Origin: Flexibacter flexilis DSM 6793
GTDB lineage: Bacteria; Bacteroidota; Bacteroidia; Cytophagales; Flexibacteraceae
NCBI RefSeq assembly: GCF_900112255.1
Contig: NZ_FOLE01000007.1
Span: forward strand, 62,001-126,000
Length of the DNA stretch: 64,000 nucleotides
Reading direction: 5' to 3'
The notes under the pieces are model-generated. The model had not been told where the DNA came from. It did not search any database and worked only from the letters and a program-made list of their open reading frames with translations. Positions 41,919 through 58,259 of the stretch are shown here, in pieces (position 1 is the stretch's first letter; every line of letters starts with the position of its first letter). The translations under genes and the position numbers were made by a program.

Positions 41919-41954
41919 AAAAAGGACAAACTCAGCGATGGGTTTGTCCTTTTT
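41919..41954. terminator. Bidirectional intrinsic terminator
   Basis: Perfect 13-bp inverted repeat (41919-41931 / 41942-41954) between the GEVED/PKD gene and the convergent CBM-like lipoprotein gene, with A-run and T-run flanks. Confidence 0.85.
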
Positions 41955-41987: not shown

Positions 41988-43013
41988 TTATTCGTGTGAG
42001 GCGTTGGCCATGTCGTACCACTTGAGTACTTCGATGTTGAGTGTGTCCATCCAGCCACAGGCTAATTTTCTATTTTCAGACTGTTCGCCGCGTAGCGTGG
42101 CTTCTTGTTTGTCCCACGAACCGCGCGTGATTTTGTACTCAAAATTATTTTCAAGCGGATTGGCCAATGTGAGCGAACAATGCGTAGCGTCTTGTCGCAC
42201 AAATTTGTATCGTGGGTCTTGCAAATTCCAGCCGTTTTGGTCGCAAGCCATATAAATATCTTCGTTGCGCGGTGTGTTGGCGGGTATTTTGGCTATTATC
42301 GTAATGGTTGGATTGGTGCAAGGCTTGAGGTCTTTCCAATTGTCTATGTGCACGCGAAGCGTATCGGTTTTTCCAAACATAAAGTTTCGGTTTTCGATTG
42401 TTTCCCCCAACTGATTTACTTCTTCTGTATCCCAAGAGCCTCGCGTAAACTTAAACGAAAGTTCTTGCCCAGAACGCGGTATGCGGATATAATACTGCCC
42501 TTTTTTATTCTGTACAAGTTGGTATTCCTTGTCAGCATCACCCCAATCATTGAAATTACTGGCCATATAAATCGGCGCGTTGGGTGGCGTAGTGGCTGGC
42601 AATTGGTCGATAATAACCGTTACATGCGGGCAATGCGTAGGCCCCACATCCGCCCAACTTTCCACATCCACAAACACCGAATCTTGCGCCCCATATTCCA
42701 AACTTCTATTATCAATGTCTTGGCCGCAAGCGTCTTGCTCTACGGTTTTCCAGTCGCCGCGCGTCAATTTATAATCCACAAAACCAAGGCCGCGCGGCAA
42801 GGTGATGGTATAAAAGCCGTTGGCTTGCTTTTCGAGTATAAATGTTTTGTCGCTCGGATTCCAGTGGTTAAAATTTCCTGCCACAAAAATATTGCCTTCG
42901 GCGGGGGTGTTTTCGGGCAAATTGCGCACTACAAGCGTGACGTTATTGCAGGAAAAAAGCCCAAAAACCAACAGCCAGATTAGCCCCGTATTTTGCCAAA
43001 TATTATTTTTCAT
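41988..43013 (-). CDS. Lipoprotein with three CBM20/E-set-like repeats
   Basis: A 341-residue predicted lipoprotein (signal peptide with FGLFSC; lipidated Cys near 22). The mature chain is three copies of a unit of about 105 residues. Each opens with a strand such as VRNLPENTP, then (V/M)A-x-NFNxWxxxDK or DQNGWNLQD, then YKLTRGDWKTVE / FKFTRGSWDTEE / YKITRGSWDKQE, and a closing NR(S/N/K). This resembles starch- or glycogen-binding CBM20/CBM48-type Ig folds. Carbohydrate binding is plausible but unproven. It is the last gene of a unit with a LytTR regulator 12 nt upstream. Confidence 0.75.
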   Translation of the reverse strand: MKNNIWQNTGLIWLLVFGLFSCNNVTLVVRNLPENTPAEGNIFVAGNFNHWNPSDKTFILEKQANGFYTITLPRGLGFVDYKLTRGDWKTVEQDACGQDIDNRSLEYGAQDSVFVDVESWADVGPTHCPHVTVIIDQLPATTPPNAPIYMASNFNDWGDADKEYQLVQNKKGQYYIRIPRSGQELSFKFTRGSWDTEEVNQLGETIENRNFMFGKTDTLRVHIDNWKDLKPCTNPTITIIAKIPANTPRNEDIYMACDQNGWNLQDPRYKFVRQDATHCSLTLANPLENNFEYKITRGSWDKQEATLRGEQSENRKLACGWMDTLNIEVLKWYDMANASHE

Positions 43014-43025
43014 TATTTATCAAAA

Positions 43026-43814
43026 TTATCTACCCAACCATTGCATAAACTGTTGCACGCGTGCCCGACTCACCAAAATTTCTTCGGTGGGTGTGGGTGC
43101 CAGTGCGATTTTCAGGCGACTGTTAAAATGCTTCGTAATCTCGCCAATAGCCTGAATATTAGTAATGTAAGTTCTGTTTATTCTAAAAAAGTCCTGCGGA
43201 TTGAGTTGGCATTCCAGTTGGTCGAGTGTGTAGGCGATGGCATATTTTCGTTTGTCGGTGGTCACCAAACAAACCATGTCGCCATCGGCAAAGAAATAGG
43301 CGATTTGCTCGGCGTTTACGTGTCGGATTTTTTCGCCCAAACTCACCATAAACCGCGTTTTGTATTGCTGCTGATTCAGGTTGAGCAGCTGCTCTATTTG
43401 ATGCAATTGCAAAGTGGGTTGAGGCGTAGCAGCTGGCGTTTGCGCCGTGCTGCGGTAATGTTCGCCAAGCTGTTCGTATTTGAGCAAAGCGGCATTAAGT
43501 GCTTCTTTTTCAATGGGTTTTAGCAAATAATCGATGCTATTTACTTTAAATGCTTTGATGGCGTATTCGTCGTAGGCGGTCGTGAAAATGACAGGGGCTG
43601 AAGGATTTATTTTGCTAAAAATCTCAAAACTCAGGCCATCGGAAAGCTGAATATCCATGAAAATCAGGTCGATGTTTGCTTTCGGAATTTGTTCGGTGGC
43701 CTCTTCCACGCTGTCGATGCAGTCCACTACCTCGATGTCGGGGCGGCACAAAAGTAGCAGCCTTTTGAGTTCGAGTTGTGCAAATGTTTCGTCTTCGATG
43801 ATAAGCACTTTCAT
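43026..43814 (-). CDS. LytTR-family response regulator
   Basis: A 262-residue two-component regulator. The receiver domain (1-120) has the acidic pocket ED (7-8), the phosphoacceptor D54 in FMDIQLSDG, T in FTTAYDEYA and K in LLKPIE. A linker follows, then a LytTR DNA-binding domain (about 155-260, with FMVSLGEKIRHV and INRTYITNIQAI). It lies 27 nt downstream of a LytS-type kinase gene, its likely partner. Targets may include its own operon of secreted proteins. Confidence 0.94.
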   Translation of the reverse strand: MKVLIIEDETFAQLELKRLLLLCRPDIEVVDCIDSVEEATEQIPKANIDLIFMDIQLSDGLSFEIFSKINPSAPVIFTTAYDEYAIKAFKVNSIDYLLKPIEKEALNAALLKYEQLGEHYRSTAQTPAATPQPTLQLHQIEQLLNLNQQQYKTRFMVSLGEKIRHVNAEQIAYFFADGDMVCLVTTDKRKYAIAYTLDQLECQLNPQDFFRINRTYITNIQAIGEITKHFNSRLKIALAPTPTEEILVSRARVQQFMQWLGR

Positions 43815-43841
43815 TGGTGTAAAGTTTTGATTTTTAATTGA

Positions 43842-44909
43842 TTAGTAGCAAATTAACGGCACAAGTACCCGAAATTCTTCGCGGCTCTGGCTCACGCAAA
43901 CGGGTCGGTCGGTCAGGTAGGCGTAACGGTTGGTAATATTTTTTAGCCCCAAACCCGACGAATATTCTTTGGTACTTTTGGGCTGCAAATTATTGATTAC
44001 TTCCAAGAAATGGTCTTCGGTTACGCGCAAATGAATGGTAAGTGGTTTCTTTTGAGATAAAATATTGTGTTTAATGGCATTTTCGATGAGCATTTGCAGG
44101 GTCATGGGCATAATTTGAGCGTTTTTGTAGCTGTCGGGAATGTCCACGTCAAAATGCAGATTGGGCGCAAAGCGCATTTCCACCAAATAACGATACGAAG
44201 CCAAAAACATCATTTCTTCGGCCATCGTGATAAGCTCTTTGTCGCGGTTTTCCAGCACGTACCGATACACTTTGGCCAGTTGGCGCACGAACTGCGCGGC
44301 GGTTTCTTGGTCGGCAAAAATCAAGGACGAAAGCGTATTGAGGCTATTAAACAAGAAATGCGGATTCACTTGATTTTTAAGCATTTCAAACTGAAATTCA
44401 ATGTTTTCTTTCTTGAAACGCTCCAATTCCGAAACCGAATCGCGCCAGCGTTTGAGCAAAAACACGCCCATATCAATCCCGACTACTATCATGGTAAGTG
44501 TAACGGAGACCGCCGCCACGACGATTTCGTCGCGTAGGCTAATGAAGGTTTGCCCTACACAATACCAGTTGAAAAGATTACGCACCACCGACACGCAGAA
44601 CAAAATATATGAAATATCCATTAGTTGCTGTACGATGAGCCGCCGCACGGGATTGGCGTTCCAAGCCATGCGTTTGTCCAGATGGTCGTTGATGGTGCGC
44701 AAGCCTACCATTACCAAAAAAGTCAGTAAAATTACCCAGAAATAAGCCGCCAAAGTATTGTTCTTGTCTTCCACATTGGCGGGGCTATACGGATACAAAA
44801 GCCCGAAAATCAGATTCATTACCACGTTCAACAAAATTCCCAAACCTGCGGGGCTGGCAAGCCGCCACCAGTTAATCCGAGCAAAGAATAAAGAGATGCG
44901 TTGTATCAT
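43842..44909 (-). CDS. LytS/YehU-type sensor histidine kinase
   Basis: A 355-residue membrane kinase. About four membrane segments occupy residues 20-150, without a clear periplasmic sensor. A short coiled coil (about 155-175) leads to the His_kinase domain, with H184 in NPHFLFNSLNTLSS as phosphorylated residue. ATP-binding boxes IENAIKHN and GLGLKNITNR follow. I place the start at ATG 44909; a TTG at 44945 in the same frame is less likely. It pairs with the LytTR regulator downstream, 27 nt away. Confidence 0.93.
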   Translation of the reverse strand: MIQRISLFFARINWWRLASPAGLGILLNVVMNLIFGLLYPYSPANVEDKNNTLAAYFWVILLTFLVMVGLRTINDHLDKRMAWNANPVRRLIVQQLMDISYILFCVSVVRNLFNWYCVGQTFISLRDEIVVAAVSVTLTMIVVGIDMGVFLLKRWRDSVSELERFKKENIEFQFEMLKNQVNPHFLFNSLNTLSSLIFADQETAAQFVRQLAKVYRYVLENRDKELITMAEEMMFLASYRYLVEMRFAPNLHFDVDIPDSYKNAQIMPMTLQMLIENAIKHNILSQKKPLTIHLRVTEDHFLEVINNLQPKSTKEYSSGLGLKNITNRYAYLTDRPVCVSQSREEFRVLVPLICY

Positions 44910-44947
44910 GGAATAATCAATGGGGTTTTCGGGCTTGCGGGGCAAAA

Positions 44948-45307
44948 TTATTGAATTACGAGTTGGCGCGAAAATACTTCGTCTCGGCGGCTTAGCACAA
45001 CTTTGTACGTTCCTTTTTCGAGTTTGTCCAGCGAATAATGCTTAATGCTCGACCCCAAATCCGATATATTTGCCGATATAACCGCTTGACCCGTAGTGTC
45101 TTCTATCCGAAATTTAACGGTGCTGTTGTCCGCTTTTTTCATCATTACCACCAACTCATTTTTGAGAGATGGATACATTCCCACCGTAAAAGAAGTGTTG
45201 GTAGAAACGGCATTTTCGGTACTTACGACGGCGTTGCCTTCGGCTTTACTAATGCTTGGGCTGGCCAAAATTAATGTTGCGGCTAAAATTAAAGCGGAGA
45301 TTTTCAT
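44948..45307 (-). CDS. Short secreted beta-sandwich protein, paralog 1
   Basis: A 119-residue protein with a signal peptide (ALILAATLILASPSISKAEG) and a small predicted Ig-like domain of about 90 residues. It shares with its upstream neighbour the pattern NTSF, ELVVMMKK, DTTGQ, YSLDKLEKGTYKVVLSR and a final strand FSRQLVIQ. The ending resembles a stand-alone T9SS-CTD-like or DUF3244-like fold but lacks the YPNP start of sorting domains. No known function. It lies 38 nt upstream of the kinase gene and may be a periplasmic accessory or output of that system. Confidence 0.7.
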   Translation of the reverse strand: MKISALILAATLILASPSISKAEGNAVVSTENAVSTNTSFTVGMYPSLKNELVVMMKKADNSTVKFRIEDTTGQAVISANISDLGSSIKHYSLDKLEKGTYKVVLSRRDEVFSRQLVIQ

Positions 45308-45367
45308 TTTGATAAGATGATTTTTGTGAAATAATATTTTTGAAGCAATACCTTGATTAGTAGGTTA

Positions 45368-45739
45368 TTATTTGATAGTAATTTCTCTGGTGAACAGCTC
45401 GTTTCCGCGTGTCAATTTGACCATATAGCGGCCTGCGGGCAGTTGGTTGAGGTCGTAGCGTTTGAGGATGTTGGTGTGTTTGCTTTCCTTTTCCTCAAAA
45501 AGATATTGTCCTTTTTCGGTCAGAATCGCAATGCGCACGGGTTCTTTGTCTTCTTTTTGAAGAATAACAGCCAATTGGCCGTTGGCATTAACGCGCACAT
45601 TGGCCGCAAATGAAGTGTTCGTATTTACGCCTTGTGCGGCTAATTCGGCGTTTGTTTTGGCGGCAAGCGGTGAGGTTACTAAAAGCATGAGGGCAAGTAC
45701 TTGCCATTTGATTGCGGAGAAAAGAGATGTGTTCAGCAT
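45368..45739 (-). CDS. Short secreted beta-sandwich protein, paralog 2
   Basis: A 123-residue protein with a signal peptide (about 1-27, ending ...SPLAAK). Its mature part matches its neighbour: VNTNTSFAANVRVN, LAVILQKEDKE, ILTEKGQYLFE, YDLNQLPAGRYMVKLTRG and FTREITIK. It is the first gene of the five-gene unit and is preceded by a full-consensus promoter (45803-45833). The two paralogs look like a tandem gene duplication that has since diverged. Function unknown. Confidence 0.7.
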   Translation of the reverse strand: MLNTSLFSAIKWQVLALMLLVTSPLAAKTNAELAAQGVNTNTSFAANVRVNANGQLAVILQKEDKEPVRIAILTEKGQYLFEEKESKHTNILKRYDLNQLPAGRYMVKLTRGNELFTREITIK

Positions 45740-45802: not shown

Positions 45803-45833
45803 CAAACTTAGTGTGCGGCGGTGTGCTGGCCAA
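45803..45833 (-). promoter_or_regulatory. Promoter of the LytS/LytTR operon
   Basis: Reverse-strand TTG (45831-45833), 20-nt spacer and TAAGTTTG (45803-45810) match the Bacteroidota consensus. The -7 box lies 64 nt upstream of the first ATG (45739). Confidence 0.75.
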
Positions 45834-45857
45834 CGGCTGTGCGGTCAGTTGTCAAAA

Positions 45858-45913
45858 CGGCGGCGTGAATGGTTGTGCAAGCAAGTTGGATTGCACGACC
45901 ATTCACGCCGCCG
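45858..45913. repeat. Strong 23-bp hairpin between lacI-type gene and LytS operon
   Basis: Arms 45858-45880 and 45891-45913 pair over 23 bp with one G-U/mismatch position around a 10-nt loop. No T-run follows on either strand. It lies just upstream of the operon promoter and past the end of the LacI-type gene; it could be a terminator-like structure, a palindromic repeat or a binding site. Confidence 0.8.
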
Positions 45914-45959
45914 AACGAAATAAGAACCAAACTTTACAGATTTTTAGAAACCGCCTACC

Positions 45960-57302: not shown

Positions 57303-58259
57303 ATGAAATTAACGAAAACAATCAACCGTAAAATAATTTCACCTTTAGTTTATGGTTTGGGGATAGAACAAATGCTGGCACGTCGTGCCGCGAAACATCG
57401 GATTATACTCAATTATCATGGCGTAACTGATAAATTTGATTTGGGTATCAATCATAGACACATGGACGTGCAGCAATTTGAAAGAGATATTCTTTATTTC
57501 AAAAAGCACTTCAAAATTGTTTCGCTATCAGAAATTTATAATTCCTATTTGCAAGGCGAAACTCCCCAAGAAAACTTATTGGCTCTCACTTTTGATGATG
57601 GTTATATCAATAATTTAGAAATCGCTTTGCCAATACTGGAAAAATATAATGCTCCTGCCACTTTTTATATTATTACGGCAGGCTTGGAAAATCCTGACTT
57701 TATCACTTGGTACGATACTTTGGATATGATGCGTTTGGCGGATCACAATGCTCACAATTACGGAGAACTTGCCAATCAAATCAAAAAAATGGGTAATGGG
57801 CGAGATGTTTATATTCAGGGTCTTACGGCTCAACTCCCGCGTTATGAAGAAATGAAAAAACGCAATCCACATTATTGGCAACTGATGAATAATGCGCAAG
57901 TATTGACTTGTGCCAAGTCCAAACTCATAGAGATTGGTTCGCATACGCATTTGCACTATAATGTCGGCAATATTGATTTTGCTTTGGCCAGCGAAGAGAT
58001 GAGATTATCTAAAAAAATATTGGAAAATCTTCTGCAAAAAGAAATTGTAAGCATTGCTTATCCTGATGGCAACTACACTGACAAGATAAAAGATGAAGCC
58101 CAGCAAATTGGCTACAAACAACAATATGCAGTAAATTATCAGCTTGGAAGTGATGCGAATGATACGCGCATTCTTAACCGTTGGAGTATGAGCAACAGTA
58201 CCACTCACGAAGCCAATATGATACTTTTATCCACATCACTTAACTCAAAAGGTTTTTAA
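57303..58259 (+). CDS. Polysaccharide deacetylase family protein (CE4)
   Basis: A 318-residue protein with the NodB-homology fold. The metal-binding and catalytic motifs are TFDDGY near residue 95 (Asp-Asp) and GSHTHLHYN near 211 (His-x-x-x-His); YPDGNYTD may be motif 3. Such enzymes remove acetyl groups from N-acetylglucosamine polymers or similar glycans. No signal peptide is obvious, so it may act on lipid-linked or cytoplasmic-face precursors. ATG 57303 is preferred over an upstream TTG. The GNAT-like gene starts 5 nt after its stop, indicating one operon. Confidence 0.88.
   Translation: MKLTKTINRKIISPLVYGLGIEQMLARRAAKHRIILNYHGVTDKFDLGINHRHMDVQQFERDILYFKKHFKIVSLSEIYNSYLQGETPQENLLALTFDDGYINNLEIALPILEKYNAPATFYIITAGLENPDFITWYDTLDMMRLADHNAHNYGELANQIKKMGNGRDVYIQGLTAQLPRYEEMKKRNPHYWQLMNNAQVLTCAKSKLIEIGSHTHLHYNVGNIDFALASEEMRLSKKILENLLQKEIVSIAYPDGNYTDKIKDEAQQIGYKQQYAVNYQLGSDANDTRILNRWSMSNSTTHEANMILLSTSLNSKGF

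Follow-up and report, generated by a model that had tools for sequence, protein, structure and literature searches.

A predicted operon of Flexibacter flexilis and other Bacteroidota that combines LytS-LytTR with small secreted proteins and a lipoprotein of starch-binding-type modules

We have analyzed a stretch of 64,000 nucleotides (from here on, the window) of the genome of Flexibacter flexilis DSM 6793 (contig NZ_FOLE01000007.1, positions 62,001 to 126,000). It contains a group of five genes coding for two small secreted proteins (SP1 and SP2; SP for any member of this type), a LytS-type histidine kinase (LytS), a response regulator with a LytTR domain (LytTR) and a lipoprotein with starch-binding-type modules (LIPO). 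The core of the group is a unit shared by distantly related Bacteroidota, and we propose that this unit might work as an autoregulated circuit sensing the cell envelope.

Genes and products of the locus

Among the open reading frames of the window, the five genes follow each other in the order SP1, SP2, LytS, LytTR and LIPO, all of them on the minus strand and spanning 45739-41988 (Table 1). The gaps between them are exactly 60, 38, 27 and 12 nucleotides, and a terminator scan of the window found no site in any of the four. Upstream of SP1, TTG-N20-TAAGTTTG fits what we take to be the -33/-7 promoter type of Bacteroidota. The coordinates agree with a first-pass annotation, made from the letters of this DNA, in the genes, their order, the gaps and the promoter. 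Three other claims of that annotation also stood: that the two short genes are paralogs, that the kinase has no evident sensor domain and that the lipoprotein is a triple CBM20-like one. The evidence for each is given below.

Table 1. Coordinates of the features of the unit and its surroundings (window positions unless a locus is given)
Feature	Position	Strand	Remarks
SP1, small secreted immunoglobulin (Ig)-like protein (DUF3244/T9SS-CTD-like)	45368..45739	-	123 aa
SP2, relative of SP1	44948..45307	-	119 aa
LytS-type histidine kinase	43842..44909	-	PF06580 5.7e-23; 355 aa from ATG
LytTR response regulator (receiver + LytTR)	43026..43814	-	PF00072, PF04397; 262 aa
LIPO, lipoprotein with three CBM20/CBM48/AMPK-GBD-like modules	41988..43013	-	341 aa
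Unit promoter, TTG-N20-TAAGTTTG	45803..45833	-	end 64 bases before SP1 start codon
Proximal LytTR-box position, degraded (core 3/5)	45843..45851	-	38 bp before -7 element
Middle LytTR-box, intact TTCAC core	45864..45872	-	59 bp before -7 element, a distance shared with relatives
Distal LytTR-box position, degraded (core 3/5)	45885..45893	-	80 bp before -7 element, register of relatives
Terminator-like stem of 16 pairs	41919..41954	.	terminator scan, + strand entry only; separates LIPO from the convergent GEVED gene
Gene of ~90 residues upstream of LytS	L107:3754-4026, L108:3445-3726, L199:1114-1389		zinc-ribbon/HTH-like matches

No Pfam domain besides PF06580 was over the cut-off in LytS. Its frame can also be opened by a TTG located 36 nucleotides before the ATG. 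A plain hydropathy count gave four hydrophobic segments in the window protein, and of the 18 units counted, 11 had four such segments, 6 had three and one had five. Scores of 81.4, 60.5 and 76.1 bits, against cut-offs of 25.2, 30.2 and 22.6, place the pair among the LytS-LytTR two-component systems, the kind to which BtsSR, YpdAB and AgrCA belong. The genome has 15 PF06580 kinases, and to our knowledge few kinases of this type in Bacteroidota have a known stimulus.

The window LIPO, when scanned alone, was below every Pfam cut-off. AMPK1_CBM was matched by seven of eight LIPO members (best 1.2e-10), and X25, CBM48, CBM53 and CBM20 matched as well. A structural model built from 14 sequences had a mean predicted local distance difference test value (pLDDT) of 88.6 and a predicted template modelling score (pTM) of 0.47; because of the latter, the arrangement of the modules is not readable from it. 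The fold matched starch-binding CBM20 domains with Z up to 10.4 (module 3) and 9.2 (module 1). In the AMPK glycogen-binding domain (GBD), two tryptophans and one lysine bind the carbohydrate (PMC2642990), and counterparts of this W-K-W site were found by pattern in all three modules of the window LIPO. Among the 116 module cores of the unit set, the lysine was present in 107 and the second tryptophan in 93, the pattern permitting only K or R at the lysine place. Fold, profiles and W-K-W site support placing the modules in the CBM20/CBM48/AMPK-GBD superfamily, with putative binding of alpha-glucan. Surface lipoproteins of Bacteroidota have an acidic export signal after the +1 cysteine (PMC5080379). 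In 26 of 28 LIPO sequences fewer than two acidic residues were found at +2 to +7 (CNNVTLV in the window; that of L072, outside the lipobox pattern, was read by eye). LIPO, lacking this signal, should therefore face the periplasm, where it could reach the sensor-less kinase.

SP1 and SP2 are related to each other (32% identity, E 5.5e-12). They pass the cut-off of 23 bits of NCBIfam TIGR04183, the type A domain of the type IX secretion system (T9SS), with 24.4 and 24.3 bits, and both are below the cut-off of PF18962, the Pfam T9SS C-terminal domain (CTD), and below the 25 bits of DUF3244 (PF11589), where they score 20.3 and 22.6. A model of SP1 from 18 sequences is a seven-strand sandwich with pLDDT block means of 86-97 over residues 41-120. 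The closest folds are DUF3244 structures, with Z 11.3 (3sd2, root-mean-square deviation 2.5 over 80), 10.6 and 9.6, followed at level scores by other sandwich domains that include T9SS CTDs (8qb1, Z 9.4). The folded part (44-123) is the CTD-like domain alone, with no cargo domain ahead of it. By plain hydropathy count, 18 of 18 SPs have an N-terminal hydrophobic stretch. A near copy of SP2 with the same promoter type is located elsewhere in this genome (G000:C9:35916-36272, equal to L087:8911-9270). It lacks a box array, and neither LytS nor LytTR is labelled within its 18-kb stretch.

Conservation of the unit

We scanned genomes with eight LIPO sequences and used the best 80 loci. A LIPO with three to five modules was present in 21 of them (profile E <=1.7e-92, the best of the rest being 4.6e-59), counting the one at L110, which was masked by an opposite-strand reading frame and added by hand. 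At all 21, LytS and LytTR are directly upstream on the same strand, and at 18 an SP precedes LytS (16 by hidden Markov model, L110 and L124 by eye). The loci include some from Cytophagales, Bacteroidales, Lentimicrobium, a Cryomorphaceae metagenome-assembled genome (MAG) and one MAG labelled Chlorobiota, with Xanthocytophaga flavus as the sole named isolate. The unit is shared by distantly related Bacteroidota.

The 291 genomes of the same order were searched separately with LytS and with LIPO alignments, taking the best seven LytS and the best four LIPO candidates of each. At least 15 had LIPO below 1e-70 and at least 13 had LytS at 1e-119 or better. All 13 fall within the 15 and have the two genes side by side, while the remaining two genomes have a LytS truncated where the contig ends; among the candidates scored, LIPO and the unit-type LytS occur only together. 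The next-best LytS matches fall off (345 vs 402 bits), and no LIPO was found within 1.5 kb of those at L204-L207 and L209-L220. The first-pass annotation had considered that the small genes and the lipoprotein might not be conserved beside LytS and LytTR in any relative. This was not what we found, as LIPO follows the pair at the 21 scanned loci and in all 15 LIPO genomes of the 291. Chance proximity of the genes is rejected by the recurrence in the genome scan and by this two-way test. In a sample of the phylum, a full LIPO was found in at least one of 395 genomes, namely that of F. flexilis itself (E 1e-30, best three candidates per genome).

After removal of redundancy there were 33 unit genomes with the LytS-LytTR-LIPO linkage (L068 lies in the same genome as L108). 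SP heads 21 of the 31 assessable units, the count leaving out G003 and G491, which are at contig ends. The unit LytS form 27 rows on one side of one branch with 12 others opposite and an SH-aLRT of 93, in a quick tree that has long branches among the others and leaves out one row plus the cut LytS of L069. The distances of SP, LytS, LytTR and LIPO correlate with each other (r 0.67-0.86 over 18 loci, with none of 999 permutations as high), for which shared descent alone would suffice. Two loci (L110 and L111) have one SP with two tandem domains, where the window has two SP genes, and a second SP gene was not found in any other unit examined, so that the core has four genes. The five-gene unit of the first-pass annotation holds for the window, but the core elsewhere has a single SP, and SP itself is missing in ten units of the 31. 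In these genomes, the core is a conserved unit of SP, LytS with four transmembrane segments (4-TM), LytTR and LIPO with three to five modules.

Upstream of LytS, SP-less units of one family have a gene of ~90 residues with zinc-ribbon/helix-turn-helix (HTH)-like (transposase-like) matches (Table 1). In other LytS-LytTR branches of the order (L204, L205, L207, L209-L215 and L218), small exported-looking proteins are often found by eye directly upstream, which suggests that such proteins ahead of LytS are a wider theme.

Repeated boxes upstream of SP

Copies of ANTTCAC(A/C) upstream of SP in the relatives were first spotted by eye. We then counted pairs of TTCRC, permitting 20-22 bp, in the 220 bases upstream of 29 units (a count that leaves out G457 and G515). 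Pairs were present in 14 regions, all of them of SP-first units (14 of 21), and 22 of 22 pairs were spaced by exactly 21 bp. None of the 162 control regions, upstream of other genes of the same loci, had a pair, and mononucleotide shuffles gave a mean of 0.076 and a maximum of 2. Since the motif had been chosen after looking, every 5-mer was also counted at spacings of 8-40. TTCAC at 21 bp came out on top, being present in 14 of 21 regions, against 2-3 for the best unrelated entries, and in 300 draws of 21 control regions no 5-mer and spacing ever gave more than 3.

The boxes also keep a register with the -7 element TAnnTTTG. The distance was 38/39 in 10 cases, 59/60 in 13 and 80/81 in 13, with 5 elsewhere, cases from the same region not being independent; the 161 control regions gave 9 cases, of which a single one was in register. 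Five of the 21 SP-first regions (L110, L113, L121, L125 and L141) have no TAnnTTTG in their last 110 bases. Described LytTR sites are 9-bp direct repeats located 10-13 bp apart, triplets included (PMC11347149). The TTCAC array has the layout of such sites, and LytTR would be its binder. The exact triple array was matched in 19 of the 33 unit genomes, in 8 of them before the unit's own SP, where it was the only match of the genome in 5 (G436, G437, G438, G441 and G448). The remaining matches were largely tandem repeats, coding sequence and single sites before other genes. In the F. flexilis genome, the box search also met a 21-bp unit repeated many times in tandem (G000:C15:25716-26182).

In the window, the region upstream of SP1 has no 9-base direct repeats at one mismatch or less. 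With a matrix derived from the relatives, the three-box site upstream of SP1 outscored all others in the window, both strands considered (3.3 vs 0.9 for the next).

A stable hairpin at 45850-45930 (-41.9 kcal/mol, z -7.7, single copy in the genome) overlaps the middle box. It is located downstream of a LacI gene (46993-45998) on the same strand, and a second inverted repeat was read by eye between LacI and SP1. LacI was rejected as a member of the unit, as these hairpins intervene before SP1, and a LacI query gave no labelled match beside the units in L067-L073. At the other end, the convergent gene beyond LIPO codes for a GEVED/PKD protein with a T9SS tail.

Proposed circuit, alternatives and known systems

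Evidence on which part senses comes from another class of regulators. In 31 of the best 80 loci (classed by similarity; L126-L140, L142-L156 and L165), the same modules are N-terminal to AraC-type regulators. HTH_18 was found in the six proteins scanned, five of the 31 plus L082:8445-10127. Modules and HTH are set apart by four or more hydrophobic segments in all of the 31 but L165, which is shorter. GH13 or SusC/D is beside 26 of the 31, by similarity to single reference proteins in flanks to ~6 kb. These membrane regulators are likely a family of starch sensors. Because LIPO has the same modules that are fused there to membrane regulators beside starch genes, it is likely the periplasmic sensor of the unit.

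We propose that the operon forms a self-contained circuit that senses the envelope and regulates itself, with LIPO as sensor and SP as product, a reading to which we give a probability of about 0.5. LIPO, anchored to a membrane and facing the periplasm, would sense a periplasmic ligand with its starch-binding-type modules and relay the signal, presumably by contact, to the 4-TM LytS, itself without a sensor domain. LytS would phosphorylate LytTR, which may bind the tandem boxes, spaced by two helical turns, immediately ahead of the SP promoter and activate, rather than repress, an operon read as one transcript. The main product SP, small, Ig-like and with a predicted signal peptide for export, would be an envelope output or a feedback on LIPO and LytS. 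The parts read directly from the sequence are the conserved linkage, the domain content, the box array with its register, the place of SP first behind the array and the missing surface-export signal of LIPO.

Several observations weigh against this proposal. SP is absent from ten of the 31 units (L107, L108, L109, G457, G515, G004, G007, G001, G018 and G598), none of the eight SP-less units examined has a TTCRC pair before LytS, and 7 of the 21 SP-first regions lack an exact pair. Some units have wide gaps between SP and LytS (394 nucleotides in L122, 328 in L116). As a control, the reversed triple pattern also matched in seven genomes, once in G437. The window copy has one intact box, short of the two intact boxes that would be expected of a LytTR-controlled promoter, and its two-box score of 3.5 is not the best of the window (13.0 for a site at 57315). 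Besides, the window LIPO is the only one of the eight members without AMPK1_CBM, matching only X25 at 0.049. Finally, in the flanks of the LytS unit (to ~6 kb) GH13 was found at 1 of 21 loci and SusC/D at none.

These points shift individual steps of the proposed circuit. The array evidence of the family, together with the one intact box and the split scores of the window, makes autoregulation through the boxes a strong prediction for the unit family and a moderate one for the window copy; it is still the best supported step of the circuit. Ten units have LytS-LytTR-LIPO but no SP, and the eight of these that were examined have no array before LytS, which fits SP as a regulated product better than as an indispensable part of the sensor. 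We infer that SP is a regulated secreted product or a feedback element. The first-pass annotation left the secreted proteins as either sensors or outputs, and the choice can now be narrowed, with LIPO resembling a sensor and SP a regulated product. From its flanks, LIPO as a part of starch loci was not borne out. The most likely ligand, to judge from the modules, would be an alpha-glucan or malto-oligosaccharide, but without a genomic tie of the unit to starch use it may be something else.

Of the other explanations, the one that survives best, though we hold it unlikely, makes SP itself the signal. LytTR would drive SP, and LIPO and LytS would sense it, closing a density-dependent loop of positive feedback like agr or com with a folded signal of 80-90 residues. 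A secreted Ig-like domain would then be both product and signal of the LytS-LytTR loop, read via LIPO as a detachable multi-module sensor on the periplasmic side: a glycan-gated protein autoinduction, equally unlikely in our estimate. SP is the first gene to follow the box array in its own LytS/LytTR unit, and in five genomes the exact triple array is only there. It is also the most divergent member, with a mean identity of 22% vs 34% for the membrane part of LytS and 49-52% for the kinase part, LytTR and LIPO module 1, and its distances track those of its partners (r 0.73-0.79, 18 loci, with shared phylogeny still in). However, the unit genes include none for peptide processing, the kinase is of the PF06580 and not the AgrC type, the ten units mentioned do without SP, and proteins resembling SP are frequent outside LytS neighbourhoods.

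Ranking behind it, and also improbable, is that LIPO and SP are both effectors made on demand, for alpha-glucan capture or as matrix proteins, while LytS-LytTR senses something else in the membrane. The four hydrophobic segments of LytS could sense unaided, and modules of the LIPO type are also present in esterases and GH13 enzymes. Yet LIPO lacks a surface-export signal, its form with three to five modules was found only with this kinase branch, and its modules are also the N-terminal part of the membrane AraC regulators.

We find it harder still to credit that the unit surveys the envelope or the T9SS, with SP as a stand-alone CTD-like reporter signalling the state of secretion, as proposed for PorA upstream of PorY-PorX (PMC7712824). 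This would account for SP1 and SP2 being over the TIGR04183 cut-off and for their fold near T9SS CTDs, but both are under the Pfam CTD cut-off, the SP of L120 reaches 14.2 where the cut-off is 27, extensions are present at the C-terminus of several SPs, and the strongest fold match is DUF3244. SprA was found in 29 of 29 unit handles (28 genomes, G033 and G429 being one) vs 303 of 395 in the phylum sample, a weak count because T9SS is common where the unit lives; its presence in all unit genomes tested permits a link to T9SS and favours it weakly. As for the precedent itself, direct contact between PorA and PorY was not detected by its authors (PMC7712824).

The unit lends itself to testing: its sensor-less kinase comes with one constant lipoprotein, its promoter has a readable operator, and SP is an obvious reporter gene. 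It also suggests a sensing role for starch-binding-type modules in regulators of two unrelated classes.

The first-pass annotation knew of no described system of this make-up, and we likewise found no description of the unit in our searches of openly licensed literature, a scope outside which most subscription journals fall. Compared with known systems, it shares with LytS/LytTR pairs the PF06580 kinase, the receiver-LytTR regulator and, ahead of a promoter, boxes in direct repeat with a spacing of two helical turns. It differs from them by the kinase without a further sensor domain, the constant lipoprotein with starch-binding-type modules and the secreted SP in first place. From quorum sensing of the agr type it is set apart by the folded domain of SP, the PF06580 kinase and a unit without a processing gene. 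The membrane AraC regulators have the same module family N-terminal to a regulator; however, they are one-component and tied to starch-type genes, and the LytS unit is not so tied. PorX is not known to be a LytTR regulator. In the PorA-PorY-PorX-SigP system of Porphyromonas gingivalis, a surface CTD-type protein acts upstream of a histidine kinase, but PorA has a further FimH-like domain, unlike SP, and in the available part of the report no CBM lipoprotein is described alongside it (PMC7712824). A further case is AMPK. The glycogen-binding domain of its beta subunit belongs to the same superfamily, has the W-K-W site and serves a kinase regulated by glucan (PMC2642990), but it is a single module, and we do not claim homologous signalling with the LytS unit. 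The enzyme itself is a eukaryotic Ser/Thr kinase. Against this background, the unit is apparently an undescribed operon type, a variant of the LytS-LytTR two-component kind.

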